Shown here: positions 20,102 through 58,424 of the stretch, piece after piece | How positions within the stretch are numbered: position 1 is the stretch's first letter | How the letters are laid out: the number at the start of each line of letters is the position of its first letter | Assembly: GCA_902597545.1 (NCBI GenBank) | Contig: CACJYD010000002.1 | Span: 62,001-126,000 of the forward strand | Source: an uncultured Bacteroidota bacterium | GTDB taxonomy: Bacteria; Bacteroidota; Bacteroidia; Flavobacteriales; Flavobacteriaceae | Length of the DNA: 64,000 nt | Reading direction: 5' to 3' | Notes under the pieces: generated by a model | Database searches by the model: none | What the model was told of the DNA's origin: nothing | What the model saw: only the letters and a program-made list of their open reading frames with translations | Made by a program: the position numbers and the translations under genes

Positions 20102-20539
20102 TTGAAATTAAAATCATTATTAAAAAAAAGTGGATACCTATCAATTTCCTTTAAGAGGTTAAAAACTAATCACATTCAAATTAAGGCAGAAATAAATAGT
20201 GTAAAAGGTGTATTTATAATTGATACTGGGGCATCTAATTCTTGTATTGATTTAAAATTATGTGATTTTTACAATATCAGCTATGAGAAAAGCTCAGAAA
20301 AGGCATCAAGTGCAACAGATCAAATTTCTAATACAATGATTTCAAAAAAAAATCAAATCAAAATTGGGAAATGGTTTAAAAAAAATATGACAATTGTCTT
20401 ATTTGATATGACATTCATCAACAAAACGCTCAATGAGCATGGAATAGAATGTGTTTCCGGGATAATAGGCTCTGATTTATTAAAAAAAGGAAAAGCAATT
20501 ATAGACTATTCTGAAAATAAATTATTTTTAAAATCTTAG
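20102..20539 (+). CDS. Single-domain retropepsin-like aspartic protease
   Basis: The 145-residue protein has the catalytic signature [13 protein letters not shown] near residue 42 and a second family feature, the hydrophobic GIIGSDLL block near residue 122. Retropepsins (clan AA) have one active-site motif per chain and work as dimers. No signal peptide or membrane helix is visible, so it may be cytoplasmic. The start is TTG 20102; the upstream region is divergent to tatD. The last 4 bases overlap the convergent sucB stop. The target is unknown. Confidence 0.82.
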
Positions 20540-21756
20540 ATTTCCAGAGATTTTTTTAAATCACTATTCATTAGTCCCTCAATAGGGTTTTCTAGTAATT
20601 CTTTAACTTTTAATAAGAATCCAACCGATTCTTTTCCATCAATAATTCTATGATCATAGCTAAGAGCAAGGTACATCATGGGGTGGATTTCAACCTTACC
20701 ATTTACAGCAATTGGTCTTTCAATTATATTATGCATACCCAAAATAGCAGATTGTGGAGGGTTTAAAATTGGTGTTGAAAGCATTGATCCAAAAACTCCA
20801 CCGTTAGAAATAGTAAATGTCCCACCTGACATATCCTCAACTGTAATTAATCCGTCGCGAGCACGAATTGCAAGTCTCTTGATTTCTTTTTCAATTCCAG
20901 AAAATGTTAAATCTTGAGCATTACGGACAACTGGGACCATCAATCCTTTTGGTCCAGAAACTGCAATACTAATATCATAGAAATCAAATTTAATTTGTTG
21001 ATCTTCATCAATCATGGAGTGTACATCAGGAAATTCCTTAAGAGCTGATACAACAGCTTTAGTGAAAAAACTCATAAAACCTAAACTAACATCATGTTTT
21101 GCTTTGAACGTTTCTTTATACTTTTTTCTAATTTCAAAAATGGGGGTCATGTTAACTTCATTAAATGTAGTTAGCATAGCTGTTTGATTTTTGACAGCAA
21201 CAAGTCTTTGAGAAAGTTTTCGTCTAAGTAATGACATTTTTGATGTATCAACTTTTCTATCTTTTGAAATGCTATCAATATCAACTCTTGGTAATGTTTT
21301 TAAAGCATCCTCTTTAGAAATTCTACCACCTTTACCAGTTCCTTTAACATTTTCGTAATTAACCCCTTTGTCATCCAATATTTTTCTAGCTGCAGGGGAT
21401 GGTATGCCTGAATGTGAATTACTTACTGTATCTTCAGATTTAGTTTCAATAACTATTGGGTTTTCATTTTTGGTGACAGTTTGAGATTCAATATCGTTAT
21501 TTTTCTTTAATACTTTTTTTCCACTAGTATCTATTAAGCAAACTATATCACCAACTAGTACAGTATCACCTTCTTGAGCTTTAAGAGTTATAGTACCACT
21601 TTCCTGAGCAGGTAAATCTAGAGTTGCCTTATCAGAATCAACTTCGGCTATAGTTTGATCCTTTTCAACATAATCACCGTCCTCAACCAACCATTGTGCA
21701 ATTTCTACTTCAGAAATTGATTCTCCAGGTGATGGTACAGGCATTTCTAAAATCAT
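20536..21756 (-). CDS. sucB: 2-oxoglutarate dehydrogenase E2 (dihydrolipoyl succinyltransferase)
   Basis: The 406-residue E2 core of the 2-oxoglutarate dehydrogenase complex has a lipoyl domain (residues 1-77, lipoyl-Lys in [11 protein letters not shown]), a flexible linker, an E3/E1-binding domain (about 118-155, [15 protein letters not shown]) and a catalytic domain ending with [16 protein letters not shown] (active-site His). It transfers succinyl to CoA in the TCA cycle. It is transcribed after sucA but separated from it by a PNGase F-like gene. The sucA-type E1 nearby supports the 2-oxoglutarate rather than pyruvate specificity. Confidence 0.95.
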
Positions 21757-21795
21757 TCAGTTAAGTTTAAATTTAAATTTACCACTTTTAATTAT

Positions 21796-23175
21796 TTAAT
21801 TTGAAATTGTAGCAGGTTCAATTTCTTGATCACTTTTTAATACAATAAATGTTGAGATGGCATTGTATGCATTTTTATTATTATAACCAGGTGTACCAAC
21901 AAAATTATTTGTCCATGGTTGAAAATAATACTCAAAATTAATATCAGTATTTGACACATCAGTATCAAACTTATCTAATCTTAGAGGGACAACCATTCCA
22001 GGACACCAACCTGCTCTGTCAGGAGCCCAATTTCCACCTTGATTACTGATAGGATTATTACCACAACCAATCGGTCCCATGTAGTGACTAAATTTATCAA
22101 CGTTATTAATTTTAATCTTATGTGTTCTAAAGCACCACTCAGCACAAGCCCTTCCATCACTATCTGCAGGTGTGGCATGACCCCATCCTGAAATTATTGT
22201 TCTAAAATGGGCACTTTTAATATTTGAACCAACTGAAATAGTCTTAGTTAAATCAAATTTTTCTTTATCAAGTTGTGTATTTCCATTTTCACCACCATAT
22301 GGTACTCCAGAAAGTGAATTTCTATTAAATTGTATGACAGGTGTAATTTGATAATATTTATAGTCAGGGTTTCCAGCCAAATAATCAAATTCTAATGAAA
22401 TTACCCATCCACTTCCAACCCATGTTTCAGCATAGATTTTTAGTTCCACATTTCCTGAAAGGAGTGATTTAAAATCTGTAACATCAACTTGTAATCCTCT
22501 TGTTAACTGTGAATTTCCTACACCATAGGGTGTTATGTGACGAGCCATTTCATACCACTGATTTGTATTAGAATTTTTAACTAAAATATTAGCAAACCTA
22601 TCCCAAGGGTCACACCCTCCAGATGGACACTCAAGTCTTATATACATTTTAATCCCCTCTATGTTGTCATTATTATTGTGTAAATCAAAACTCTGTGAAG
22701 CTGACTGACTAAAACCTGATCCCCATGCCAACCTTGTTTTTGAAAAAGCTTTATAATTATACTTTAATTGGACCCCATCTCCTGACAAACTAATTTTTAC
22801 ATCATTAGCTTCAGCATTCTTAATATCAATTGATCCAGAATATGTTTGAATTTTTGAAGGTGAGAAACGAACATGGATAGTTTTTGATTGATTGGCATCA
22901 ATTGTTAATGAATTTCCAAAATTCAGATTATCAGATGAAATTTCAAATCCATCAGTTACAATAATTTCCACAGATGAGTTCACATTTTTACTTTCAACTA
23001 AAATAGATGAGGCAGATGATGATTTTGAAACCATCGTATCATCAAAATTCAAAGATGTTTTATCAACAATTATAGATGGTGTATCTGGGATAACTATATC
23101 GTCTGATGATTCATCTCCACCAGAGCATGATATAAAAAATAAAATTATTCCAATCACTAAAAAAAACTTTTTCAT
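21796..23175 (-). CDS. PNGase F-type peptide:N-glycosidase, lipoprotein
   Basis: A 459-residue protein. Residues 1-18 are a lipoprotein signal (FFISC, Cys17) followed by an acidic stretch. Residues 35-135 look like an SPD-2/Hydin-type Ig fold. Residues 140-455 closely follow Elizabethkingia PNGase F as I recall it. The catalytic equivalents are present: Asp192 (CDPWDRF, D60), Glu250 (YAETW, E118) and Glu346 (CAEWCFRTH, E206). The three disulfide pairs are also conserved as Cys183/188, Cys344/348 and Cys371/391. It should release N-glycans from glycoproteins at the cell surface. It lies 8 bases after sucA and 39 before sucB. The added Ig domain and lipid anchor differ from the secreted enzyme. 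Confidence 0.92.
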   Translation of the reverse strand: MKKFFLVIGIILFFISCSGGDESSDDIVIPDTPSIIVDKTSLNFDDTMVSKSSSASSILVESKNVNSSVEIIVTDGFEISSDNLNFGNSLTIDANQSKTIHVRFSPSKIQTYSGSIDIKNAEANDVKISLSGDGVQLKYNYKAFSKTRLAWGSGFSQSASQSFDLHNNNDNIEGIKMYIRLECPSGGCDPWDRFANILVKNSNTNQWYEMARHITPYGVGNSQLTRGLQVDVTDFKSLLSGNVELKIYAETWVGSGWVISLEFDYLAGNPDYKYYQITPVIQFNRNSLSGVPYGGENGNTQLDKEKFDLTKTISVGSNIKSAHFRTIISGWGHATPADSDGRACAEWCFRTHKIKINNVDKFSHYMGPIGCGNNPISNQGGNWAPDRAGWCPGMVVPLRLDKFDTDVSNTDINFEYYFQPWTNNFVGTPGYNNKNAYNAISTFIVLKSDQEIEPATISN

Positions 23176-23183
23176 TTCAAATA

Positions 23184-25916
23184 TTAATTTTTAAAATTAT
23201 TTTTTGTTTTATCAAAAACATATTCAATCACTTCATTGTGTCTTTTATCAAATCTAGCTTTACTTCCAGAAGCTGGAGCTCCATAAAATCTTCTAGAAGC
23301 AACCCTGAATTCTTTTGCTCTATCTAAATGCATTAATAAATGTCCCCAAGCGCCCATATTTCTTGGCTCTTCTTGAGCCCATACTATCTCATCAAATGAA
23401 TAGTTCTCAATAATACTTTCAATCTCTTTCTTCGGAAGAGGGAACAATTGTTCTATTCTCACAATCGCTACATTTGAAACTTTATTTAGTCTTTTATAAT
23501 ACAGGAGATCATAATAAAATTTACCACTACAAAAGACTAAAGATTTTACATTTTTTTGTTTATCGCTGTCATCAATTACAGGTAAAAATTCTCCAGTAAT
23601 TAAATCGCTAGTTTTTGAAATTACTTTTGGATGCCTAAGTAAACTTTTGGGAGTTAATAGTATTAAAGGCTTTCTAAACTTAGTTACCAATTGCCTTCTA
23701 AGTATGTGGAACAAATTTGCTGGAGTTGTACAATTAGCCACATACATATTATCCTTAGCGCATAATTGTAAATATCTTTCCAACCTTGCAGATGAATGCT
23801 CAGCACCCTGACCTTCATATCCGTGGGGAAGCATTAATACAAGTCCATTTTGAAGCTTCCACTTATCCTCAGCTGAGGAAAGGTATTGATCAATCATAAT
23901 TTGGGCTCCATTACTAAAGTCTCCAAATTGAGCTTCCCAAACCGTCAAAGTATTAGGATATGCTAGTGCATAACCATACTCAAAGCCCATGACTCCATAC
24001 TCCGATAACAACGAATTATAAATTTGAAATGAGCCTTGATCTTTTGAAATATTATTTAATGGTATAAACTCTTTTTCAGTTTTCTCTGTTTTTAATATTG
24101 CATGTCGATGAGAAAATGTTCCTCTCTCCACGTCTTGACCAGAGATTCTAACATTATAATTTTGATCCAACAGGGTTCCATATGCAAGTAATTCAGCAAT
24201 TGCCCAATCAATTTTATTATGTTTGAAAAACATATTGTTTCTATCATTCATTAATCTAACCACTTTTTTTAAGTAAAGATCAGGGTTATCTAACTTGAAA
24301 ATATTTTTTGCAACTTTTTCTAATACGTTCTTATCAACCTTAGTAGAAAAAGTTTTTAACATTTCTTTTCTTTTAGCACTCGATAGACCTTTCCACTCAT
24401 GCTGCATAAAAGGTGTAATAATAACATTTTTTTCCTTTTTAGAATCTGATAAATCTTCATTTAAATCTTTACTGTAATCATCTTCAATATTCTTAATTTC
24501 CTCTCGATCAATAACTTTCTCATTTACAAGTTGTGTTGAGTATATTTCTTTAACACTAGGATGAGTTGAAATTGATTTGTAAAGCTTAGGTTGAGTAAAC
24601 CTGGGTTCATCACCTTCATTGTGACCATATTTTCTATAACCCAATAGGTCAATAAAAACATCTCTTTCATATCTCATTCTATATTCCAAAGCAAAATTAG
24701 ATGCATGAACAACTGCTTCGACATCATCAGCATTGACATGAAGAATTGGACATAGATTAGCTTTTCCTACATCAGTACAATAAGTTGATGATCTTCCGTC
24801 AACATAATTTGTGGTAAAACCAATTTGGTTATTAACTACTATATGAATTGTTCCGGCTGTTCGATATCCCTTTAACCTTTCCATTTGAACTACTTCATAA
24901 ACAACTCCTTGGGCAGCTATTGCAGCGTCACCATGTATAATTACAGGTAACACATTTTTTACATTATCCTTGTGATACTTATCTTGTTTAGCTTTAGAAA
25001 TTCCCTGAACAACTGGACCTACTGATTCTAAATGCGAAGGATTTGGTGCTAAATTTATGTATACATTTACACCTCCATCAGATTTTCTTTTTGATGTCCA
25101 ACCAAGATGGTATTTAACATCTCCATCAAAAATTTGCTCCTCGTAGTCTTTTCCATCAAACTCATTAAAAATTTCTTTTGCTGGTTTACCAAAAATATTT
25201 GACAATGTATTAAGTCTTCCCCTGTGTGCCATACCAACCACAAATTCTTTAACTCCCATTGATGCAGCATTCTCAAAAATTGAATCTAGAGCAGGAATTA
25301 ATGACTCTCCACCCTCAAGTGAGAATCTTTTTTGACCGACATACTTTTTTTGTAAAAATTGTTCAAAATTAGTGGCTTGAACTAACTTTTTTAATATATG
25401 TTTCTTTTGTTTTTTATTAAAATTAGTCCTATTATCATTTTCATTGAGCTTCTCTTGAATCCATTTGATTCTTTCAGGGGTTCGTATATACATGTACTCA
25501 ATTCCAATAGAATCACAATAAATTCTTTCTAAATGAATTAGTATATCAGCCAAAGTAGAGTTACCAATTCCAATTATTTCACCGGCACTAAAACTTAAAT
25601 CTAGATCATCTTTTGAAAGTCCAAAATTTTCTAAATCTAAATTTGGTGAATATTTCCTCCTATCACGAACAGGATTCGTTTTGGTAAATAGATGTCCTCT
25701 AGTTCTATAAGCATTAATGAGCTTAACAACCTTAAATTCTTTTAAAATATTTTCTGGAATATCTTCTTTTTTTGAAGCTTTATCAATTCCAAATTCAAAT
25801 CCTTGAAAAAAAGCGCGCCATGATGGTTCAACAGATTCGGGATTAATTAAATATTGATCGTAAAGCTCAGCAAAATAAGCTGTATGGGCAGTGTTTAAAA
25901 ATGAATAGGGATCCAT
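23184..25916 (-). CDS. sucA: 2-oxoglutarate dehydrogenase E1
   Basis: The 910-residue thiamine-diphosphate decarboxylase component of the TCA-cycle complex begins with the SucA-specific N-terminal helix (DPYSFLNTAHTAYFAELYDQY). It has GMAHRGRLNTLSN, IHGDAAIAAQGVVYEV, the TPP/Mg-binding NNQIGFTTN region and the C-terminal WAQEEPRNMGAWGHL block. It decarboxylates 2-oxoglutarate and passes the succinyl group to SucB. ATG start at 25916, 59 bases after the cupin gene on the same strand. The E3 gene is not in the window. Confidence 0.97.
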   Translation of the reverse strand: MDPYSFLNTAHTAYFAELYDQYLINPESVEPSWRAFFQGFEFGIDKASKKEDIPENILKEFKVVKLINAYRTRGHLFTKTNPVRDRRKYSPNLDLENFGLSKDDLDLSFSAGEIIGIGNSTLADILIHLERIYCDSIGIEYMYIRTPERIKWIQEKLNENDNRTNFNKKQKKHILKKLVQATNFEQFLQKKYVGQKRFSLEGGESLIPALDSIFENAASMGVKEFVVGMAHRGRLNTLSNIFGKPAKEIFNEFDGKDYEEQIFDGDVKYHLGWTSKRKSDGGVNVYINLAPNPSHLESVGPVVQGISKAKQDKYHKDNVKNVLPVIIHGDAAIAAQGVVYEVVQMERLKGYRTAGTIHIVVNNQIGFTTNYVDGRSSTYCTDVGKANLCPILHVNADDVEAVVHASNFALEYRMRYERDVFIDLLGYRKYGHNEGDEPRFTQPKLYKSISTHPSVKEIYSTQLVNEKVIDREEIKNIEDDYSKDLNEDLSDSKKEKNVIITPFMQHEWKGLSSAKRKEMLKTFSTKVDKNVLEKVAKNIFKLDNPDLYLKKVVRLMNDRNNMFFKHNKIDWAIAELLAYGTLLDQNYNVRISGQDVERGTFSHRHAILKTEKTEKEFIPLNNISKDQGSFQIYNSLLSEYGVMGFEYGYALAYPNTLTVWEAQFGDFSNGAQIMIDQYLSSAEDKWKLQNGLVLMLPHGYEGQGAEHSSARLERYLQLCAKDNMYVANCTTPANLFHILRRQLVTKFRKPLILLTPKSLLRHPKVISKTSDLITGEFLPVIDDSDKQKNVKSLVFCSGKFYYDLLYYKRLNKVSNVAIVRIEQLFPLPKKEIESIIENYSFDEIVWAQEEPRNMGAWGHLLMHLDRAKEFRVASRRFYGAPASGSKARFDKRHNEVIEYVFDKTKNNFKN

Positions 25917-25975: not shown

Positions 25976-26458
25976 TTATCTTCCATAATCATCATCTAAT
26001 CTAACTATATCATTCTCATCAGACGAATTATTTGAATCTATATGCTGCCAAATCTCAGCTAAAACTGCATAATCATCCAATCCTATAAGCCTGTGCCTTT
26101 CTCCTTTTTCTAACTTAACCATATCACCTTGAATAAGTTTTATAATTGGACTTTGCTCATTATCATGACTCCTTGATATACCAACGTTACCCTTAAAAAC
26201 TTTCCATATTTCCTCTCTTCTTTGGTGATACTGCCATGAAAGTTTTGAATTTGGTTTTACAATGAGAATTTTTGGACTTAGCTTTCCTCCTAATTTTAAA
26301 GTTTGGATATTAATACCATCAAAAAATTTATTTGCAAATTCTTGTACTTGATTTTCATTTATAACTAAAAACCCTCCCCATGGTCTTTCAAAATCTTTTG
26401 AAATAATATCAAAACCTAAGCCTTTAATTTCATCCTCAATTTCATGTAAATAATCCAT
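25976..26458 (-). CDS. Cupin protein related to mannose-6-phosphate isomerase type II
   Basis: The 160-residue protein begins with a PWGGF motif, and its RmlC-like cupin core has WQYHQRREEIWKVFKGN (metal-binding His/Glu) and KLEKGERHRLIGL. This pattern is that of the C-terminal isomerase domain of bifunctional ManC/type II phosphomannose isomerases and of short flavobacterial proteins often labelled phosphoheptose isomerase. It may interconvert mannose and fructose 6-phosphates, but activity is unproven. It precedes sucA on the same strand and is divergent from umuC. Confidence 0.7.
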   Translation of the reverse strand: MDYLHEIEDEIKGLGFDIISKDFERPWGGFLVINENQVQEFANKFFDGINIQTLKLGGKLSPKILIVKPNSKLSWQYHQRREEIWKVFKGNVGISRSHDNEQSPIIKLIQGDMVKLEKGERHRLIGLDDYAVLAEIWQHIDSNNSSDENDIVRLDDDYGR

Positions 26459-28219: not shown

Positions 28220-28646
28220 AAATAACTTTTTTATACTCATTCGGACAATTGATATTTTTAATCTGATTTTTAGTGAAAAAATTAAAATCAGAGTGCTCAA
28301 AAGAAATTTCTACAGGATTATCAGATCCTATTAAAGATTTATACAATACTATGCCAACAGGTATATCGTTGAATTTTAAATTTAAAAAATCAACTAATTC
28401 AATGTTTTTTAAACTGAGTTTTGTTTCTTCAAAAACCTCTCTCTTTAAACACTGGATTGGATTTTCATAAAAATTAATTTTTCCACCTGGTAAATCCCAT
28501 TCATTTCTCTCATTTTTTAGAAATAATACCCTGTTATTATCAATTATTAAAATTTTTAATGAAATTGGAAATTTATCTGCTATTTCATCAGTTTTAATAA
28601 ACTTAGAAAAAAAATAAACTACAATTCTATATATAGTTTTAAGCAT
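28203..28646 (-). CDS. NUDIX hydrolase
   Basis: The 147-residue protein has a full Nudix box, G-x5-E-x7-R-E-V-x-E-E-T, between residues 54 and 77 (starting GGKINFYENP). It hydrolyses a nucleoside diphosphate linked to another group; the substrate could be a nucleotide sugar given that it is the last gene of the polysaccharide array. It overlaps the start of that array's dehydratase gene end by 8 bases. The N-terminal 25 residues are hydrophobic and basic (MLKTIYRIVVYFFSKFIK), not a clear signal peptide. Confidence 0.85.
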   Translation of the reverse strand: MLKTIYRIVVYFFSKFIKTDEIADKFPISLKILIIDNNRVLFLKNERNEWDLPGGKINFYENPIQCLKREVFEETKLSLKNIELVDFLNLKFNDIPVGIVLYKSLIGSDNPVEISFEHSDFNFFTKNQIKNINCPNEYKKVIFNLIF

Positions 28647-30480
28647 TATCTAAAACTTGATATTTTGAGTTGTTTGATTTATATTCCGGGACAATTTTTT
28701 TCATAAACTCTACAATCTTGTAATTATCATCACTGTTTTTTTCCAAAATAGTTAGTAGCTCTTCGATTAAATTATAAGTTTTTATATCTATTTTTTCTTT
28801 TTTAGCTATGTAAATTAACTTATTATGAGTTTTTTCTAAATCTTCTGATTCAACTAAAATTTCTTCAAACAATTTTTCACCTGGCCTTAAACCGATGTAT
28901 TCTATAAAAATATCTTTATTAGGTTTAAAACCAGATTGAATAATCATATTTTTGGCTAAGTCAACAATTTTTACAGGTTTTCCCATATCAAAAATATAAA
29001 CCTCACCCCCCTTACTGATGGCTCCAGCTTCTAAAACCAATTGAGTAGCTTCGCTAATTGTCATAAAATATCTAATTATTTCTGGATGGGTTATTTTAAT
29101 TGGACCACCAGATTTAATTTGTTTTTCGAAAATTGGTACTACAGATCCGTTTGATCCTAAAACATTACCAAACCTTGTAGATATTAGGGATGTACAGTGT
29201 TTAGTTTCAGTTAGCTTAAATGAAAGATATAATTCACAAATTCTTTTTGTTGCACCCATTACATTAGTTGGATTTACAGCTTTATCAGTAGAAATCAGAA
29301 TAAATTTTTCAACTTCAAATTTTATTGCATTGTCGACTAGAACTTTAGTTCCAAGTATATTATTATAAACAGCTGTTTTTGGATTCATCTCCATCATATT
29401 GACGTGTTTATAAGCAGCTGCATGAAAAACTACATTAATTTTATTTTTTTTGAAAAGGCTAGCAATAAATTTTTTGTTTGTAACAGAGTTAATATGATAA
29501 ATAAATTCTATTTTACATGGCTTATTCTTTAACTCCTCTCTTAATATAAACATAGGAGTTTCTGCATTGTCAATCAGAATAATTTTTTTTGGATTGAATT
29601 TAATAAGCTGTCTGACAATTTCACTTCCAATTGAACCTGCTGCACCAGTCACTAAGAGATTTTTTCCTTTATATAACTTTTCATTCTTTTTTATATCTAT
29701 ATTAATTTCAGATCTTCCAAGTAGGTCTTGTATCTTAATTTCTTTAAGACCTGAAACTAATGGTATTCCATTAATCCATTCATTAACAGGCGGAATTTCA
29801 AGTATTTGAATACTATACTTTCTGAAATGATTATATAAAAATTTTAGCCTATTAGAAGATATTTTTTGGGTAGTGATAATTATTTTATCAATTTTATTTT
29901 TCTTAATAAATTTTTCTAAACTTTTATTAATTCCATAAACTTTTACACCATCTATACTCATATTCAATTTAGATTTATCATCATCAACAAAACCTAGAAC
30001 CTTAAATTCTGAATTATTAAAAAGAGCTCGTTTAGTTAAAATACCTGAATTTCCACATCCAAAAATTAAAACCTTAAAAGGAGTTTCATTTATTGCTGTC
30101 ATATTTTTATTAAGATACTTAACTAAAATTCTGTAAAAAATTATGAATGAGGAGGAAATAAAAAAATTAAGTAAACAAAAAATTAAAGAAGTGTTAGTTT
30201 TATCTGTTATAGAAAATAAAATAATGTTCGATAGAGCTAGAACACATATAATTTTTAATATGTCGTTGAATGATGTGTATCTTAAAAAAAAGTTATAGGA
30301 TTTTGAGAATATAAGTACTAATACGGGAATTAGAATAAATACTAAAATATTTTTATCAAAAAACGTCGTAGGTTCTATTAATAAAAAAGATACCAACTTA
30401 AATGTTAAATACAATATAATTGTATCTATTAATATAGACCACCCACTAAAAAACTCTTTAAATATAATTTTTAATAACAC
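28639..30480 (-). CDS. CapD/WbpM/PglF-like membrane UDP-sugar 4,6-dehydratase
   Basis: The 613-residue protein has four N-terminal membrane helices (residues 15-125), a first Rossmann domain (about 135-230, LIFGCGNSG), and an extended SDR catalytic domain with NAD motif TGAAGSIGSE near 280. The catalytic block STDKAVNPTNVMGATK has Met where ordinary SDRs have Tyr, the SMK triad typical of WbpM/FlaA1-type long dehydratases. It probably converts UDP-GlcNAc to UDP-2-acetamido-2,6-dideoxy-4-hexulose for the first sugar of the repeat. It follows the priming transferase gene by 6 bases, a frequent pairing in bacterial polysaccharide loci. Confidence 0.92.
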   Translation of the reverse strand: MLLKIIFKEFFSGWSILIDTIILYLTFKLVSFLLIEPTTFFDKNILVFILIPVLVLIFSKSYNFFLRYTSFNDILKIICVLALSNIILFSITDKTNTSLIFCLLNFFISSSFIIFYRILVKYLNKNMTAINETPFKVLIFGCGNSGILTKRALFNNSEFKVLGFVDDDKSKLNMSIDGVKVYGINKSLEKFIKKNKIDKIIITTQKISSNRLKFLYNHFRKYSIQILEIPPVNEWINGIPLVSGLKEIKIQDLLGRSEINIDIKKNEKLYKGKNLLVTGAAGSIGSEIVRQLIKFNPKKIILIDNAETPMFILREELKNKPCKIEFIYHINSVTNKKFIASLFKKNKINVVFHAAAYKHVNMMEMNPKTAVYNNILGTKVLVDNAIKFEVEKFILISTDKAVNPTNVMGATKRICELYLSFKLTETKHCTSLISTRFGNVLGSNGSVVPIFEKQIKSGGPIKITHPEIIRYFMTISEATQLVLEAGAISKGGEVYIFDMGKPVKIVDLAKNMIIQSGFKPNKDIFIEYIGLRPGEKLFEEILVESEDLEKTHNKLIYIAKKEKIDIKTYNLIEELLTILEKNSDDNYKIVEFMKKIVPEYKSNNSKYQVLDNA

Positions 30481-30486
30481 TTATAT

Positions 30487-31206
30487 TCAATTTAAATTAT
30501 CTACTCCAGGTGGGGTCGATGGCTTTAATCTATTTTCCCTTTTTGAAACACTTACAAGGTTTTCTGGTGCATTAATTTTTTTTAATAGCTTATTTAAAAA
30601 ATATAAAGCTTTTTTCTTAGAGAAAATAGCAATTATAGTTAGTAAAATTAAAAATAAATCAATTTTATTTGTCCTTGTTTTAATATACAACAAACCTAAT
30701 CTACTTTTCCAAGGTCTAATGAGTAGATTGTAATCAGTATCAGGATCTTTACTTAACTTTAAAATTTCACCCTCATCAGAGAAAACTATGGACGAAAAAT
30801 CTGTTATACCTGGACGAACTGTTAATAATTTTTTTTCTTCATCAGAATATTTATTCAAAACATGATCAATTATTTGAGGTCTTGGTCCGACAATACTCAT
30901 ATTTCCAATAAAAACGTTGAATAATTGAGACAGCTCATCAATTTTAAACTTCCTTATAATTTTGCCAACAGATGTAATTCTACTATCATTAGATGAAGTT
31001 GAACTTACTCCAGTTTTATCAGCTCCAGCAGACATAGATCTAAATTTAATCATTCTAAAAGGCTTTAAATCCTTACCCATTCTTAAAGGAGTATAAAATG
31101 GTGATTTTAAATCGCCAAGAAAAACAAAAAGAATTGTAAATAAAAAAATTGGAGACAACAGAATAATACCTATAGATGAAAAGGAGATATCAATAAACCT
31201 TTTCAT
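30487..31206 (-). CDS. Priming sugar phosphotransferase (PglC/WcaJ family)
   Basis: The 239-residue protein has a re-entrant N-terminal membrane helix (MKRFIDISFSSIGIILLSP) and the phosphoglycosyltransferase core RMIKFRSM, KIDELSQLFNVFIGNMS and VGPRPQ. It transfers a sugar 1-phosphate onto undecaprenyl phosphate to start repeat-unit assembly at the inner membrane. The size suits the small monotopic PglC-like group. It overlaps the transketolase subunit upstream by 4 bases. The likely donor is the product of the neighbouring dehydratase after further modification. Confidence 0.93.
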   Translation of the reverse strand: MKRFIDISFSSIGIILLSPIFLFTILFVFLGDLKSPFYTPLRMGKDLKPFRMIKFRSMSAGADKTGVSSTSSNDSRITSVGKIIRKFKIDELSQLFNVFIGNMSIVGPRPQIIDHVLNKYSDEEKKLLTVRPGITDFSSIVFSDEGEILKLSKDPDTDYNLLIRPWKSRLGLLYIKTRTNKIDLFLILLTIIAIFSKKKALYFLNKLLKKINAPENLVSVSKRENRLKPSTPPGVDNLN

Positions 31207-32120
31207 TTTATAATTGATAATATTTTATTAAATATAGATTCAGTATCTAAACCATTAATTTTTCTTAAGTAAGATTGTGAACCAACGATAGTAGAAAAAG
31301 AAGATTCCAGACCCATAATTACAAATTTTCTTGGAAATACACCATTATTAATTAATACTTCACTTATTGCGCTACCAAGACCTCCGATCTTTGTGTGTTC
31401 TTCAACTGAAAGCATTGGTATGCCTTTACTTGCTGATTCTAAAATAATATCTTCATCAATTGGTTTGATTGTATGCATTGAAATGATTTTACAATGTATT
31501 CCCTTTTTTGATAATTTTTTTTGGGCATTTAAAACTAAATCGGTAATCCCACCTGTTGAAAAAACAATTATATCATTACCCTCTATCAAAACTCTTCCTT
31601 TACCCACAATAAATTCTTCATCATTGTTAATAGTTTTAGCGAAAGATTTATCAATTCTAATATAATTTACTCCACCTATTTCAACTACCTTCCTGGTAAC
31701 TTGTCTTACCTCCCAAAAATCACAAGGACTAAAAACTCTGATATTAGGTAGTGCTCTTAATATTGCAATGTCTTCAGTTGCATGGTGAGAATAACCGAGT
31801 GCACCATAACTGAAACCTCCACCAATTGAAACAATGTTAACATTAGCATCATGATAGCATGCGTCATTTCTAATTTGCTCCAAACATCTTAATGTATTAA
31901 AATTTCCAATTGAATATGTAAATACAATTTTTCCATCCATTCCCAAACCAGTTGCAATTCCTGTCATATTTTGCTCTGCAACTCCTGCGTTAATGAATTG
32001 ATTTGGAAATTTCTTAATAAAATTATCTAGTACGCCAAAACCTAAATCGCCTGTTATTAAAATTATATCTTTATTTGACTTTACAATCTGAGTTAACTCA
32101 TCTATAAAATTATCTCTCAT
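31203..32120 (-). CDS. Transketolase-like C-terminal subunit
   Basis: The 305-residue protein holds the pyrimidine-binding and C-terminal domains of a split transketolase: NAGVAEQNMTGIATGLGM (catalytic Glu), TYSIGNFNTLRCLEQIRNDACYH-type segment, GYSHHATEDIAILRALPNI, then the swivelling domain with SVEEHTKIGGLGSAISE. It must pair with the N-terminal subunit encoded two genes upstream. A methyltransferase gene lies between the halves. Within a polysaccharide locus a two-carbon transfer to or from a sugar is more likely than a pentose-phosphate role, but that is inference. Confidence 0.9.
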   Translation of the reverse strand: MRDNFIDELTQIVKSNKDIILITGDLGFGVLDNFIKKFPNQFINAGVAEQNMTGIATGLGMDGKIVFTYSIGNFNTLRCLEQIRNDACYHDANVNIVSIGGGFSYGALGYSHHATEDIAILRALPNIRVFSPCDFWEVRQVTRKVVEIGGVNYIRIDKSFAKTINNDEEFIVGKGRVLIEGNDIIVFSTGGITDLVLNAQKKLSKKGIHCKIISMHTIKPIDEDIILESASKGIPMLSVEEHTKIGGLGSAISEVLINNGVFPRKFVIMGLESSFSTIVGSQSYLRKINGLDTESIFNKILSIIK

Positions 32121-32124
32121 ATTT

Positions 32125-32859
32125 CTAGTCTAGAATTGCAAATCCAATATATGGATCTCCTGGGATGGTTTGAATTTTTAGATTTTTTATATTAAGACTT
32201 TCAAGAAGAGCTAAAGTTTCACCAGGCCACTGTGGATTGTCTAGCTCATCAAAAGCGATTATCGATCCCTTATGCATTCTAGGTAGAAACTGTTCTAAGG
32301 CAAATTTAGTTGGTTCATATAAATCAAGATCAATAAATAACATCCCAACAAGTAAATGAGGATTTTTCTCTAAAAATTTTGGAATCGTAAGAGTGCAATC
32401 CCCCTTAATTAATTCAATTTTATTTATGTGACCAAGAAACCTGTCTTGATTATAAATATGATTCAAATCCTGTAATTCTTGGTATACATCAGTATAGAAA
32501 TGGCCAAGCTCATGTTTATATTCAGAATTTTTATCTTTTTCATGTAAGCTTGTAAATCCTTCAAAAGTATCAAATCCGTAAACTTTTCTTATCAAATTTT
32601 CTGGTTCTAAAATTGTACTTAATTTTGCCCATGTTGTTAAACTAAAACCTCTAAAAACTCCTAATTCAACAATTGATCCTTTAACATTAAGTAGGTTTTT
32701 ATAAATTTCATACAAGGTTAAAAATCTTTTTAAATGTTGTCTTCTGACATATTTTGGAAAATTTTCTAACTTAATTTCAACGGACTCTGGACTCTTATTA
32801 AAAATTCTTTCTATAGATTTTCCAACCTCTAATTCCTTATTTGTTCTAAAACTTTTCAT
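32125..32859 (-). CDS. TylF/MycF-type sugar O-methyltransferase
   Basis: The 244-residue SAM-dependent methyltransferase has SAM motif VELGVFRGFSLTTWAK, DTFEGFTSL, and the metal-binding pair FIDLDLYEPT and AFDELDNPQWPGE typical of the TylF (macrocin O-methyltransferase) family that methylates sugar hydroxyls. It lies 4 bases upstream of transketolase C and 7 bases downstream of transketolase N, so it is embedded in the split enzyme's cassette. It probably methylates the same or a neighbouring sugar. Confidence 0.88.
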   Translation of the reverse strand: MKSFRTNKELEVGKSIERIFNKSPESVEIKLENFPKYVRRQHLKRFLTLYEIYKNLLNVKGSIVELGVFRGFSLTTWAKLSTILEPENLIRKVYGFDTFEGFTSLHEKDKNSEYKHELGHFYTDVYQELQDLNHIYNQDRFLGHINKIELIKGDCTLTIPKFLEKNPHLLVGMLFIDLDLYEPTKFALEQFLPRMHKGSIIAFDELDNPQWPGETLALLESLNIKNLKIQTIPGDPYIGFAILD

Positions 32860-32866
32860 AATTTGA

Positions 32867-33682
32867 TCATTTTAATTCTGACTTTGCTTTTTTATATTCA
32901 TCATCTTTTGCCGATCTGTAGTGCCATAAAACATTATTTTCAAAAAATGATACCCCTTTACCTTTTATTGTATGTGCAACTATGCATGTAGGTTTACTTT
33001 TAAAACTTGAAGCTTTGTTATATGACTCAATAATTTCAGTTATCGAGTGACCATCTATTTCAATTACATTCCATCCAAAAGCTTTCCATTTATCAACAAA
33101 TGGTTCGAGGCTTAATGTATTTTCAACAGTATCAAGACTTTGAATTTTATTGTAATCAATAATTGTTATTAAATTATTGAGCTTGTGATGAGCAGCAAAC
33201 ATTATTGCCTCCCAATTTGAACCTTCATCACACTCACCATCGCTTAGTAAAACAACTACCTTATTTTTTCTGTTATCAAATTTTGCTGCAAGAGCAAAAC
33301 CAACACCAACTGGCAGTCCATGTCCTAAAGAGCCGGTTGAAAATTCAACACCATTAATATTTTTGTGAGAAACATGACCACTTAAATTAGATCCATCTTG
33401 GTAATGAGTTTCTAATAATTTTTTTTTAAAAAAACCTGTCTCAGCCAAAGCAGCATAAACACCTGCACCGGCGTGGCCTTTACTTAATATAAACCTATCT
33501 CTGTTTGGATTATTTATATTTTTGGGGGATATGTTTAATAAATTACCATAAAGACAGGATAATATATCAGCTATTGAAAAAACTGAAGCGATGTGCGAAC
33601 TTGATCCGCGACTAGTCATATCTAAAGCATGGTTTCTTATATTCTTAGCAATAATTTCCAATTTTTTAATATTAACTTCCAT
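32867..33682 (-). CDS. Transketolase-like N-terminal subunit
   Basis: The 271-residue TPP-binding half has SRGSSSHIASVFSIADIL, LSKGHAGAGVYAALAE, GSLGHGLPVGVGFALA and LSDGECDEGSNWEAIMFAA with IIDYNKIQ (Mg-TPP motif). I chose ATG 33682 (MEVNIKK); a TTG 27 bases upstream is less likely. The start overlaps the aminotransferase end by 11 bases. Split transketolases also occur in central metabolism, but the placement in a sugar-modification cassette argues for a special donor or acceptor. Confidence 0.9.
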   Translation of the reverse strand: MEVNIKKLEIIAKNIRNHALDMTSRGSSSHIASVFSIADILSCLYGNLLNISPKNINNPNRDRFILSKGHAGAGVYAALAETGFFKKKLLETHYQDGSNLSGHVSHKNINGVEFSTGSLGHGLPVGVGFALAAKFDNRKNKVVVLLSDGECDEGSNWEAIMFAAHHKLNNLITIIDYNKIQSLDTVENTLSLEPFVDKWKAFGWNVIEIDGHSITEIIESYNKASSFKSKPTCIVAHTIKGKGVSFFENNVLWHYRSAKDDEYKKAKSELK

Positions 33683-34793
33683 AACCAAAAAAATTTCTGA
33701 TTTTATCAATTACATAACTTATATCATTATCATCTAGAGATGTGTTCATGGGTATCAAAAAAGATCTATTCATTATGTCCTCTGTAAATGGTAGTGAAAT
33801 TTTGAATCCTAAACCTTCAAATTGATGAACAGCTTTACCTCCCCATTGAAGAATTGTACCAATTCCTTGAGATTTTAAATAATTAATTAAGGACGTACGA
33901 TCTTTTGAGTTAGCAACCTCCAATTCATAATTTTGATATATTTCAAATTTATTTGAATCATAATCGGGATGTCTGGGTAAAACTAGCTCATTTACATCAA
34001 CCAATCCTTTTTGATACATTGAAGCAATTTGTCTCCTTCTTTTAACATCTCTATCATACATTTTCAATTTAAAGTCAAGTATTGCTGCGTTAATACTATC
34101 TAACCTAGAGTTCATGCCCCAAGTAACCACATTCCCAATTTTTTCTCGGCCATGATCACGAGTCAAAAAAATCTTCTCATAAATATTTTCGTCATTTGTT
34201 ATTACTGCGCCTCCATCTCCAAAACATCCAATGACTTTAGCAGGATAAAAACTAAATGATGATGCAATACCAAAATTTCCTGCAAATTTACCTTTATATT
34301 TTGCACCAATTGATTGGGCAGCATCTTCAATTAGGATCAGATTATTTTCATTACATAATTTAATTATTTCATCCATATCACAAACATGTCCATTTAATTG
34401 TGTTGGTATAATTGCTCTTGTTTTACTAGTTATGTTTTCTCTTATAGATTGAACAGATATTAGGTGATCAGGACCACATTCAACTGGAACAGGAATTGCT
34501 CCAGCGTGATAAATTGCAGAAGCCGTAGCAACAAATGTATGTGATGAAAAAATAACTTCATCACCAGGTTTTATACCTGCGGCTTTAATTGATAGTAAAA
34601 GTCCATCAGTACAATTTCCAACACCAAGGGCAAATTTTGATTCTAAATAATTTGATAAATTTTTTTCAAAAAATTTTAGCTCATCCTGCATAATAAATGA
34701 CCCTCTTTTAGAAACATCTAAAAGTATTTTTTTGAATTCATCAGCATATTGACCATAAACAAAACCATAATTGAAAAAGGGTACATTCATCAT
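33672..34793 (-). CDS. DegT/DnrJ/EryC1 sugar aminotransferase
   Basis: The 373-residue PLP-dependent sugar aminotransferase has the cofactor region GNCTDGLLLSIKAAGI, the aspartate in LILIEDAAQSIGA, and the PLP-lysine loop FSFYPAKVIGCFGDGG. Such enzymes aminate 3- or 4-keto nucleotide sugars with glutamate. Its substrate is probably the keto sugar made by a nearby dehydratase. It overlaps the methyltransferase gene start region by 4 bases and leads into the transketolase pair, suggesting a common sugar branch. Confidence 0.92.
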   Translation of the reverse strand: MMNVPFFNYGFVYGQYADEFKKILLDVSKRGSFIMQDELKFFEKNLSNYLESKFALGVGNCTDGLLLSIKAAGIKPGDEVIFSSHTFVATASAIYHAGAIPVPVECGPDHLISVQSIRENITSKTRAIIPTQLNGHVCDMDEIIKLCNENNLILIEDAAQSIGAKYKGKFAGNFGIASSFSFYPAKVIGCFGDGGAVITNDENIYEKIFLTRDHGREKIGNVVTWGMNSRLDSINAAILDFKLKMYDRDVKRRRQIASMYQKGLVDVNELVLPRHPDYDSNKFEIYQNYELEVANSKDRTSLINYLKSQGIGTILQWGGKAVHQFEGLGFKISLPFTEDIMNRSFLIPMNTSLDDNDISYVIDKIRNFFGYGS

Positions 34794-55864: not shown

Positions 55865-57172
55865 CTAGTATCTATAATATTCAGGTTTGAATGGTCCATC
55901 AACCTCAACTCCAATATATTTAGCTTGCTCAGGCGATAATTCTTCAAGTTCAACTCCTAATTTTTCAAGATGAAGTTTAGCAACTTTTTCGTCAAGGTGT
56001 TTTGGAAGCATATAAACCTCATTTTTATATTTTGATGAATTATTCCAAAGTTCCAGTTGAGCTAAAACTTGATTAGTAAATGAATTACTCATCACAAAAC
56101 TTGGATGACCAGTAGCACAACCTAAATTAACCAATCTACCTTCAGCTAAAATAATAATATCATTACCATCAATATTGTATAAATCAACTTGTGGTTTAAT
56201 CTCAACTTTTGTATTTCCATAATTTGAATTTAGCCATGCCATATCAATTTCATTATCGAAATGACCAATGTTACAAACAATTGTTTTGTCCTTCATTTTT
56301 CTAAAATGATATTCAGAAATAATATCCTTGTTTCCAGTTGCAGTAACAACAATATCTGCATTATGAATTACAGAACTCATTTTTTTAACCTCATAACCAT
56401 CCATAGAAGCCTGTAATGCACATATAGGATCAATTTCTACAACAGTTACAATTGCACCAGCAGCACTAAAAGATGCTACAGTACCCTTTCCAACATCTCC
56501 ATAACCAGCTACAACAACTCTTTTACCAGCCATCATGACATCAGTGGCCCTTCTGACTGCGTCAACAGCACTTTCCTTGCATCCATATTTATTATCAAAT
56601 TTTGATTTTGTAACAGAATCATTGATGTTAATTGCAGGCAATGTCAATGTTCCATTTTTTGATCTTTCGTACAATCTGTGAACCCCAGTTGTAGTTTCCT
56701 CTGATAAGCCCTTTATATCAGGAACCAAATTTTTAAAATTATCTAAAACCATATTGGTTAAATCACCTCCATCATCAAGAATCATATTTAATGGTTTTTG
56801 CTCTTCACCAAAAAATAATGTTTGCTCAATACACCATTCAAATTCTTCTTCATTCATGCCTTTCCAAGCATAAACAGAAATTCCTGCTTTAGCAATAGCA
56901 GCAGCTGCATGATCTTGAGTGGAGAAAATATTACAAGAGCTCCAAGTTACATCTGCACCTAATTCTACAAGAGTCTCTATTAGCACTGCTGTTTGAACAG
57001 TCATGTGCAAACAACCAGCAATCCTTGCTCCATTAAGTGGCTTTTTACCTTTAAATTCTTTTCTTAAAGACATCAAACCTGGCATTTCTGCTTCAGCAAG
57101 ATTGATTTCTTTTCTTCCCCAATCTGCTAATGATATATCTTTAACTTTATATTTTACAAACTTTTTTTTCAT
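55865..57172 (-). CDS. ahcY: S-adenosylhomocysteine hydrolase
   Basis: The 435-residue enzyme splits S-adenosylhomocysteine to adenosine and homocysteine. It has the NAD site [18 protein letters not shown], the substrate-side [29 protein letters not shown] and the C-terminal family ending FKPEYYRY. Length and motifs are normal. It lies 1 base after metK and 4 before pseB on the same strand, so this methyl-cycle gene appears built into the polysaccharide operon. Confidence 0.97.
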
Positions 57173-57173
57173 A

Positions 57174-58424
57174 TCATATATTAAATTTTTCTTTAATTTT
57201 TTCTACATAATCTAATTTTTCCCATGTAAATAACTCTACTTCGAATTTTTTGGTTTTGCCATCAATAGATTTAAAAATTTTATTTACTTTTTTAGGCTTT
57301 CTTCCCATGTGACCATATGAGGATGTTTCACTGTAAATTGGAGATCTCAATTTTAATCTCTTTTCAATAAAATAAGGTCTCATATCAAAAATTTCCTCAA
57401 CTTTTAACGCAATTTCACTGTCTGATATATTGATTTTTTTGGAATTGTAAGTATTAACATATATACCCATTGGTTCAGCAACCCCTATTGCATAACTGAC
57501 CTGAACTAAACATTCATCACATAAACCGGATGCTACAAGATTTTTTGCTATATGTCTAGTAGCATAAGCAGCACTTCTGTCAACTTTACTTGGATCTTTT
57601 CCTGAAAAAGCACCACCTCCATGAGCACCCTTACCACCATATGTATCCACAATAATCTTTCTACCTGTTAAACCTGTATCTCCGTGAGGTCCTCCAATAA
57701 CAAATTTTCCAGTTGGATTAACATGATAATTAATTTTGTCATTAAACAAAGACCTGTACTCAGGATACTTATTTAATAATCTGGGTATTAGATAATTAAT
57801 AACATCATATTTTATTTTTTTCAACATTTTTGCTTCATCATCAAAATCATCATGCTGAGTAGAAACAACTATAGATATAATTTTTTTGGGTTTATTATCA
57901 TCTCCATATTCCACAGTTACTTGAGATTTGGAATCTGGCCTAAGATATTTTATATCATTATTTTCTCTTCTGATTTCTGCAAGCTCAATTAGAATTTTAT
58001 GTGATAAGTCAAGTGGTAATGGAATAAAATCTTTGGTTTCATTGGTAGCATAACCAAACATCATTCCTTGATCGCCAGCACCCTGAAGTTCTGCTTTTTC
58101 TCTTTCAACACCCTGATTTATATCAGATGATTGCTCATGTATTGAAGATAGAATTCCGCATGATTGTGAATCAAACATATAGTCACTATCGTTATATCCA
58201 ATTTTTTTTATAACGTCTCTTGCAATTGACTGAACATCAAGTGAAACTTTTGATTTAACTTCACCTGCCAAAATCACCTGACCAGTAGTAACTAATGTTT
58301 CACATGCAACTTTTGAAGATGGATCAAATGCAAGGAAATTATCGATTAAAGCATCACTTATTTGATCTGCAACTTTATCCGGGTGACCTTCACTAACCGA
58401 CTCTGATGTAAATAAATAGCTCAT
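57174..58424 (-). CDS. metK: S-adenosylmethionine synthetase
   Basis: The 416-residue protein starts at ATG 58424 ([17 protein letters not shown]); a longer frame upstream has no family match. Motifs are [40 protein letters not shown] and [19 protein letters not shown]. It makes SAM from methionine and ATP. Adjacent to ahcY, it completes two steps of the methyl cycle, supplying the locus's two methyltransferases. No SAM riboswitch is possible in the 8-base gap upstream. Confidence 0.97.

Follow-up and report, generated by a model that had tools for sequence, protein, structure and literature searches.

A gene for a PNGase F-type amidase, a predicted lipoprotein of 459 residues, lies between sucA and sucB in the window (the whole stretch of 64,000 nucleotides analysed here), and the same order is held in 12 related genomes, that of the window included. 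By its sequence, the protein is an ordinary member of the PNGase F family; what was new to us is the location of the gene, not the type of enzyme. Among the papers searched, none combined sucA, sucB and PNGase, and none that names both genes used the wording "between sucA and sucB". We consider it probable that the gene was captured by the operon, is co-transcribed with sucAB and encodes a surface deglycosylase that opens polypeptides to peptidases, with purifying selection and possible allele exchange acting on it. This gene, inside a core operon, gives a predicted surface N-deglycosylase to an uncultured bacterium whose genome measures about 1.4 Mb at 85% completeness.

The PNGase gene and its neighbours

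The PNGase gene occupies positions 21796–23175 of the minus strand, with the coordinates, strand and spacing that the initial annotation had given. In a phmmer search, residues 139–458 of its product matched 1PNF with an E-value of 5.7e-106, 53% of the 306 aligned residues being identical, and both PF09113 (33.2 bits, cut-off 25) and PF09112 (28.1 bits, cut-off 22.4) were found by Pfam. The alignment to 1PNF defines a core at residues 139–391 (22003–22761, minus strand), in which D192, E250 and E346 correspond to D60, E118 and E206, as had been proposed. The residues W59, R61, Y85, W120, S155, W207, R248 and W251 of 1PNF are also kept. Its cysteines 51, 56, 204, 208, 231 and 252 all have counterparts (C183, C188, C344, C348, C371 and C391), in agreement with the earlier claim of three disulfide pairs. 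We take the mapped positions to be the catalytic and disulfide residues of PNGase F, and the six cysteines presumably pair into its three disulfides. Among 19 homologues (15 from the genus, G027 and L008–L010), every one retains the six cysteines and the equivalents of D60 and E206, and 18 retain that of E118, which is D in G007. The predicted model (mean pLDDT 69.8) has the PNGase F fold according to Foldseek, matching 1pgs with E 1.8e-31 and a TM score of 0.83 by target length. Ahead of the core, residues 33–134 (22774–23079, minus strand) form an Ig-like region assigned by Pfam to the Cep192_D4 domain (PF22073, E 1.8e-11); a choice_anch_D match fell below the NCBIfam cut-off.

Both flanking genes exceed NCBIfam equivalog cut-offs. 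Upstream, sucA (23184–25916, minus strand) encodes a 2-oxoglutarate dehydrogenase E1 of 910 residues (NF006914, 1202 bits, cut-off 764), and downstream, sucB (20536–21756, minus strand) encodes a dihydrolipoyllysine succinyltransferase E2 of 406 residues (NF004309, 482 bits, cut-off 449; TIGR01347, 469 bits, cut-off 379). All three genes lie on the minus strand, the PNGase gene being separated from sucA by 8 nt and from sucB by 39 nt. A scan found no terminator-like site in either gap, and promoter scans gave nothing above chance (51 vs 41.8, sd 7.0; 5 vs 7.6). The captured gene would most likely be read within the sucAB transcript.

The strand run opens, as the initial annotation had noted, with a cupin gene resembling the C-terminal part of mannose-6-phosphate isomerase (25976–26458, minus strand; PF01050), 59 nt ahead of sucA. 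However, this gene also precedes sucA in G017, G003, G022 and G026, where no PNGase gene was seen between sucA and sucB. The cupin is therefore not tied to the PNGase, and it was rejected as a member of a glycan module; it adjoins sucA whether or not a PNGase gene follows.

Conservation and origin of the gene order

The genus set comprised 23 small-genome flavobacterial genomes, 55–87% complete, in 16 of which sucA was found. The interval between sucA and sucB holds a PNGase gene in 12 of these (the window genome and 11 relatives), is empty in two (G017 and G003), holds another ORF in one and is unresolved in one. With start codons chosen mechanically, the PNGase ORF begins 3–6 nt past sucA in 8 of the 11 relatives and overlaps a preceding methyltransferase ORF by 10 nt in the other three, and its spacing to sucB ranges from an 8-nt overlap to 41 nt. 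A metK-ahcY-methyltransferase cassette precedes the PNGase gene in 3 of the 12 genomes; its distribution is scattered (G006, G019 and G020), and metK occurs also in G022. A 345-residue ORF of G018 had no match in Pfam or PHROGs.

A chimeric assembly or contamination could in principle have placed a PNGase gene of other origin next to the suc genes, as some of the relatives are single-cell or metagenome assemblies and an inverted sucB piece on contig C6 of G022 looks chimeric. Against this, the order is identical in 12 genomes whose PNGases are 59–81% identical to the window protein, on contigs of up to 287 kb, with the cupin gene and tatD outside where the contig extends. Because 12 genomes share the gene order, this explanation was set aside, and its probability is negligible.

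Operon capture, one of the origins raised initially, is supported by the tight same-strand packing in 12 genomes, by the tree and by G026, in which sucA and sucB are 9 nt apart and whose sucA is the most similar among the genomes not belonging to the genus. Across genomes outside the genus, the gap between the two genes is shorter than 200 nt in 124 of 139. The 12 PNGases from the slot form one clade (support 100/99.5) with the copies of G016–G018 outside it, and a single capture is therefore the simplest reading; it would have taken place in the ancestor of two clades. The branching order of clades A, B and C is not resolved in the flank tree, so that capture followed by later loss in clade C is possible.

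The position might instead be neutral, the gene having landed there by chance with no meaning for regulation or exchange. Unrelated genes occupy the interval in other genera, it is empty in two genomes of the genus, and it may be no more open than other gene pairs. Retention in 12 genomes of two clades at very short spacing argues against a neutral position, which we regard as quite possible, if short of likely. Beyond the genus, 20 neighbourhoods were read from the 28 genomes with a PNGase match, and only that of G177 contains sucA, about 7.2 kb from the PNGase gene with eight ORFs between; this proximity was rejected as a link and taken as chance. No suc genes were seen in the PNGase flanks of L008–L010.

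Selection and silent-site divergence

The PNGase gene is under purifying selection, with dN/dS of 0.069–0.143 in seven genome pairs. Kept under such selection within a core operon, the gene suggests that glycoprotein is a steady food and not an induced one.

In three of the seven pairs, the silent-site divergence of the PNGase gene clearly exceeds that of sucA and of sucB: G000/G014 (dS 1.43 vs 0.31 and 0.39), G007/G021 (1.82 vs 0.73 and 0.60) and G005/G010 (0.93 vs 0.32 and 0.45). The other four pairs give no clear excess; the genes are alike or nearly so in G014/G011, G020/G006 and G008/G021, and sucA is the most diverged in G021/G005 (0.81 vs 0.35). A generally slow silent-site rate in the suc genes does not account for this, since all three genes are alike in G000/G020 (pS 0.52–0.82). 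Furthermore, G000 groups with G020 and G006 in the PNGase tree (81/86) and with G011 and G014 in the flank tree (100/100). The excess in three pairs hints at allele exchange, in which PNGase alleles may pass between strains through recombination within sucA and sucB, the conserved flanking genes. Other readings remain: the same data would also follow if sucA and sucB had recently been homogenised. Outside the slot, tatD likewise shows a high value in G000/G014 (dS 1.92), and in G005/G010 the divergence of the PNGase gene is matched by that of the first half of sucB.

More broadly, the interval could be, across this bacterial family, a recurring cargo slot that takes in mostly genes for exported proteins, gives them growth-linked expression from the TCA operon and allows them to be swapped between strains by homologous recombination through the sucA and sucB arms, with no dedicated recombinase. 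Candidate occupants would be the PNGase, a DUF3887-M23 peptidase, an esterase lipoprotein and the metK-ahcY cassette. We hold this idea to be unlikely; it is weakened by tatD, which lies outside the slot and is as diverged as the PNGase gene in the best pair. The slot esterases of G196 and G116 were considered as counterparts of the esterase adjoining PNGase in G017 and G018 and were rejected, the likeness being distant (33–39% identity). If the cargo-slot idea were true, genes for surface enzymes could land in a housekeeping operon and be exchanged there, and the interval would be a simple place to look for others.

Surface display, role and comparison with known PNGases

The product is probably exported, lipidated and displayed on the cell surface. 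A lipid-anchored surface form is plausible, as a cysteine follows a hydrophobic stretch in all 15 genus homologues, judged by eye. In the export signal (LES) of Bacteroidota surface lipoproteins, as described in PMC5080379, polar and acidic residues come after the lipobox cysteine, with the consensus SDDFE in F. johnsoniae; the window protein reads C17-S-G-G-D-E. The initial annotation had regarded this form and the Ig-like domain as distinguishing features. A surface-bound form is not unusual, since bacterial PNGases are typically at the cell surface according to the text of PMC12381499 available to us. The Ig-like domain is present, but it is dispensable, as the G019 homologue lacks it.

The predicted reaction is cleavage of the GlcNAc-Asn amide bond in N-glycoproteins, which would convert Asn to Asp and free the glycan, and the likeliest gain would be access of peptidases to the polypeptide rather than sugar. 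GH92 was found in 1 of the 23 genus genomes and GH130 over the cut-off in none (one weak match in G005, 18.4 bits vs 26). The near absence of both favours the unlocking of protein for peptidases over eating of the glycan, although genes may be missed in genomes this incomplete. Outside the genus, an M1 peptidase gene adjoins the PNGase gene or sits one gene away in 8 of the 20 neighbourhoods (five called by Pfam, three by look).

Alternatively, the PNGase could serve sugar use, the freed glycans being imported and degraded while the suc operon gives steady expression. Glycan use is possible given a GH20-family gene in the window's own genome, GH20 matches in 16 of the 23 genus genomes and two GH92 genes in G018. 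The PNGase gene of G016 has a BNR sialidase-like gene three genes away, SusCD-like or GH92 contexts make up four of the 20 neighbourhoods read beyond the genus (G433, G213, G398 and G388), and the available parts of PMC12381499 present bacterial PNGases as nutrient enzymes. However, besides the scarcity of GH92 and GH130, all six clade-B genomes are without a GH20 match, and Pfam found no SusCD or glycosidase gene among the eight ORFs scanned around the slot, where the arrangement of an N-glycan utilisation locus (PUL), with SusCD and mannosidase genes beside the PNGase, is absent. We regard this sugar-use reading as rather unlikely.

Compared to PNGase F of Elizabethkingia meningoseptica (PDB 1PNF/1PGS/3PMS), the window protein has the same fold in the model and keeps the catalytic, contact and cysteine positions checked, including W207, which we take to be the tryptophan described beside the glutamate. 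PNGase F has Trp there and other members have His, according to the sections of PMC12381499 consulted. The window protein differs from PNGase F in its lipoprotein-like N terminus, its Ig-like domain, a few additional residues in loops around 298–305 and 425–432, and the position of its gene, which lies between the two suc genes. PNGaseL of Flavobacterium akiainvivens and five further enzymes described in PMC12381499 belong to the same superfamily and are likened here by description; variable beta-sheet accessory modules are common to them and the window protein. By contrast, that paper reports T9SS signals for PNGaseL and PNGaseDo. The genes of these enzymes are mostly orphan, with one within an N-glycan operon, and the portions of that paper used here do not mention a TCA operon. 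PNGase F-II (4R4X), PNGasePm (7ZGN) and the B. fragilis PNGase (3KS7) are structural matches of the window model at 12–14% identity. In the same portions, F-II and the Phocaeicola enzyme are described with an N-terminal bowl-like domain, whereas the window protein has an Ig-like domain.

The sucA–PNGase–sucB locus and its protein

In the window, the genes encoding the 2-oxoglutarate dehydrogenase components E1 (sucA, 23184–25916) and E2 (sucB, 20536–21756) both pass NCBIfam equivalog cut-offs, and the gene between them (21796–23175) passes the Pfam cut-offs for both domains of the PNGase F-type N-glycan amidase (PNGase). All three are on the minus strand, separated by 8 nt (sucA/PNGase) and 39 nt (PNGase/sucB), as the initial annotation had placed them. 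The protein, which carries a Pfam Ig-like domain at residues 33–134, matches PNGase F with an E value of 5.7e-106 and 53% identity across 306 aligned residues. This alignment bore out the proposed catalytic residues and cysteines: the equivalents of D60, E118, and E206 and all six PNGase F cysteines are present, and 8/8 further active-site residues checked are in place. For an AlphaFold model with a mean pLDDT of 69.8, built on an alignment of ten rows, the top structure match was 1PGS (E 1.8e-31). Conservation of the active site suggests that the enzyme has PNGase F activity. PMC12381499 describes PNGase F as carrying Trp where other members carry His.

A small aspartyl-protease-like gene (20102–20539) adjoins sucB on the opposite strand. 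Among the 16 genus genomes with sucA, 14 show it beside sucB and the remaining two have contigs that end there; G026, G057, and G177 also have it at this position. At 28639–33709, past umuDC-like genes, there begin genes that by eye resemble those for surface-polysaccharide synthesis, and gene content beyond dinB varies among relatives; past 33.7 kb, our reading covered metK–ahcY only.

Gene order in the genus and the family

The genus set consists of 23 genomes, the window's own (G000) included, with completeness of 55–87%. The PNGase gene is present in 15 and sucA in 16, with sucB in the same 16; the seven assemblies lacking sucA are uninformative on gene order. The sucA–PNGase–sucB order is conserved, on one contig and strand, in 12 of the 16 (G000, G005–G011, G014, and G019–G021), with the individually read loci L002–L007 and L011 counted once, together with G020, G006, G014, G021, G005, G019, and G011. 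As for the other four, sucA and sucB are 9 nt apart in G017 and G003; a 345-aa opposite-strand ORF (L063, 7915–8952), with no match in Pfam or PHROGs, interrupts the operon in G018; and in G022 metK comes after sucA, followed by an inverted sucB fragment in what looks like a chimera. G016, G017, and G018 carry their PNGase genes outside the interval. The G007 PNGase (L068, 7723–9135) has Asp at the E118-equivalent position and a long branch.

In G006, G019, and G020 the order is sucA–metK–ahcY–methyltransferase (PEMT/ICMT)–PNGase–sucB (L002 copies assigned by Pfam), with metK and ahcY at L002 2579–5596 and L007 2873–5911; the metK next to sucA in G022 is at L076 560–1675. The window's ahcY–metK pair (55868–58424) lies ~30 kb from sucA, and metK–sucA distances are ~22–50 kb wherever one contig holds both without this insertion. 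ahcY adjoins metK at all loci read but that of G022, whose contig stops at this point. Because metK gives a single match per genome (15/23 genus genomes), its position in the interval is a relocation, not a duplication, a claim limited to metK.

In a family survey of 149 genomes, nearly one per genus, sucA was found in 144 and sucB in 143. Both were tabulated in 143 genomes and shared a contig and strand in 141, including 139 non-genus genomes, of which 124 have a gap below 200 nt and 15 a larger one. We read 14 of these 15 (all but G141) and the two genomes in which sucA and sucB lie on different contigs. Ten other genera have exported-looking DUF3887 proteins in the interval (L092–L097, L099, and L101–L103), with an M23 peptidase in seven (G030, G040, G060, G127, G186, G189, and G206; the G186 DUF3887 match falls under the cut-off) and without it in three (G129, G152, and G198); these cases may reflect a single old event. 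Other contents are an esterase (G196), a TonB-plug protein with a DUF4299 protein (G045), and ORFs of only 48 and 71 aa (G208 and G128). On separate contigs, an esterase follows sucA in G116, and nothing relevant was found 3′ of sucA in G057. Signal-peptide-like N termini were seen by eye in most, not all, of the family's interval proteins.

Probable capture and possible later exchange

Five flanking proteins, concatenated, gave a tree with clades A (window, G006, G011, G014, G019, and G020), B (G005, G007–G010, and G021), and C (G003, G017, G018, and G022), whose branching order is not settled. In the PNGase tree, the 12 PNGases between sucA and sucB form a single clade (support 100/99.5) separate from the clade-C copies. 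In G026, the nearest non-genus genome by sucA identity (72%), the sucA/sucB spacing is 9 nt. The simplest reading is one capture predating the A/B split.

The PNGase gene has a dN/dS of 0.069–0.143 across seven genome pairs. In three of these seven, PNGase clearly exceeds both sucA and sucB in silent divergence (dS): G000/G014 (1.43 versus 0.31 and 0.39), G007/G021 (1.82 versus 0.73 and 0.60), and G005/G010 (0.93 versus 0.32 and 0.45). The excess is absent in G014/G011 and G020/G006 and not clear in G008/G021; sucA shows the greatest divergence in G021/G005 (0.81 versus 0.35 for PNGase). In 75-codon windows, G000/G014 divergence steps at both PNGase borders (0.28 and 0.16 at the sucA end; 0.46–0.76 in PNGase; 0.35, 0.36, and 0.17 in sucB), and tatD, beyond sucB, is as high as PNGase (0.75–0.78). 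The first two G005/G010 sucB windows (0.47 and 0.55) are about as diverged as PNGase. Inherently slow silent sites in the suc genes are disfavored, since all three genes are diverged to the same degree in G000/G020. The PNGase tree places G000 with G020/G006 (81/86) and the flank tree with G011/G014 (100/100). Either PNGase alleles may have been swapped or sucA and sucB may have been recently homogenized, and we do not rank one above the other.

Function and comparison with known PNGases

The PNGase gene family is already known. A PNGase between sucA and sucB had no prior report among the literature matches listed, and this site is not mentioned in the portions consulted of PMC12381499 and PMC10154615. 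Most subscription journals were outside the literature searched, so this silence is not proof of novelty.

GH92 occurs in one of the 23 genus genomes (G018, two genes), and GH130 in none above the cut-off, with a single weak match in G005. GH20 occurs in 16/23; in the window's own genome, the matching ORF carries both GH20 domains and begins like a lipoprotein. Because mannosidases are missing, the gene content tips the balance to the genus PNGase in the interval serving protein use over sugar use.

Across the family, 30 of 397 genomes, in 25 of 237 genera, encode the PNGase core. An M1 peptidase gene adjoins PNGase or lies one gene off in eight of the 20 non-genus neighborhoods read, called by Pfam in five (L126, L130, L131, L136, and L141) and by look in three (L137, L139, and L143). 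Most of these groups also include a gene that we take to be RecG-like and a patatin-like gene, the latter tested in one case. SusCD-like contexts account for three of the 20 neighborhoods (SusD and MFS were tested in one of them), and a GH92 context for one more. Relatives' PNGases therefore show protein as well as sugar settings.
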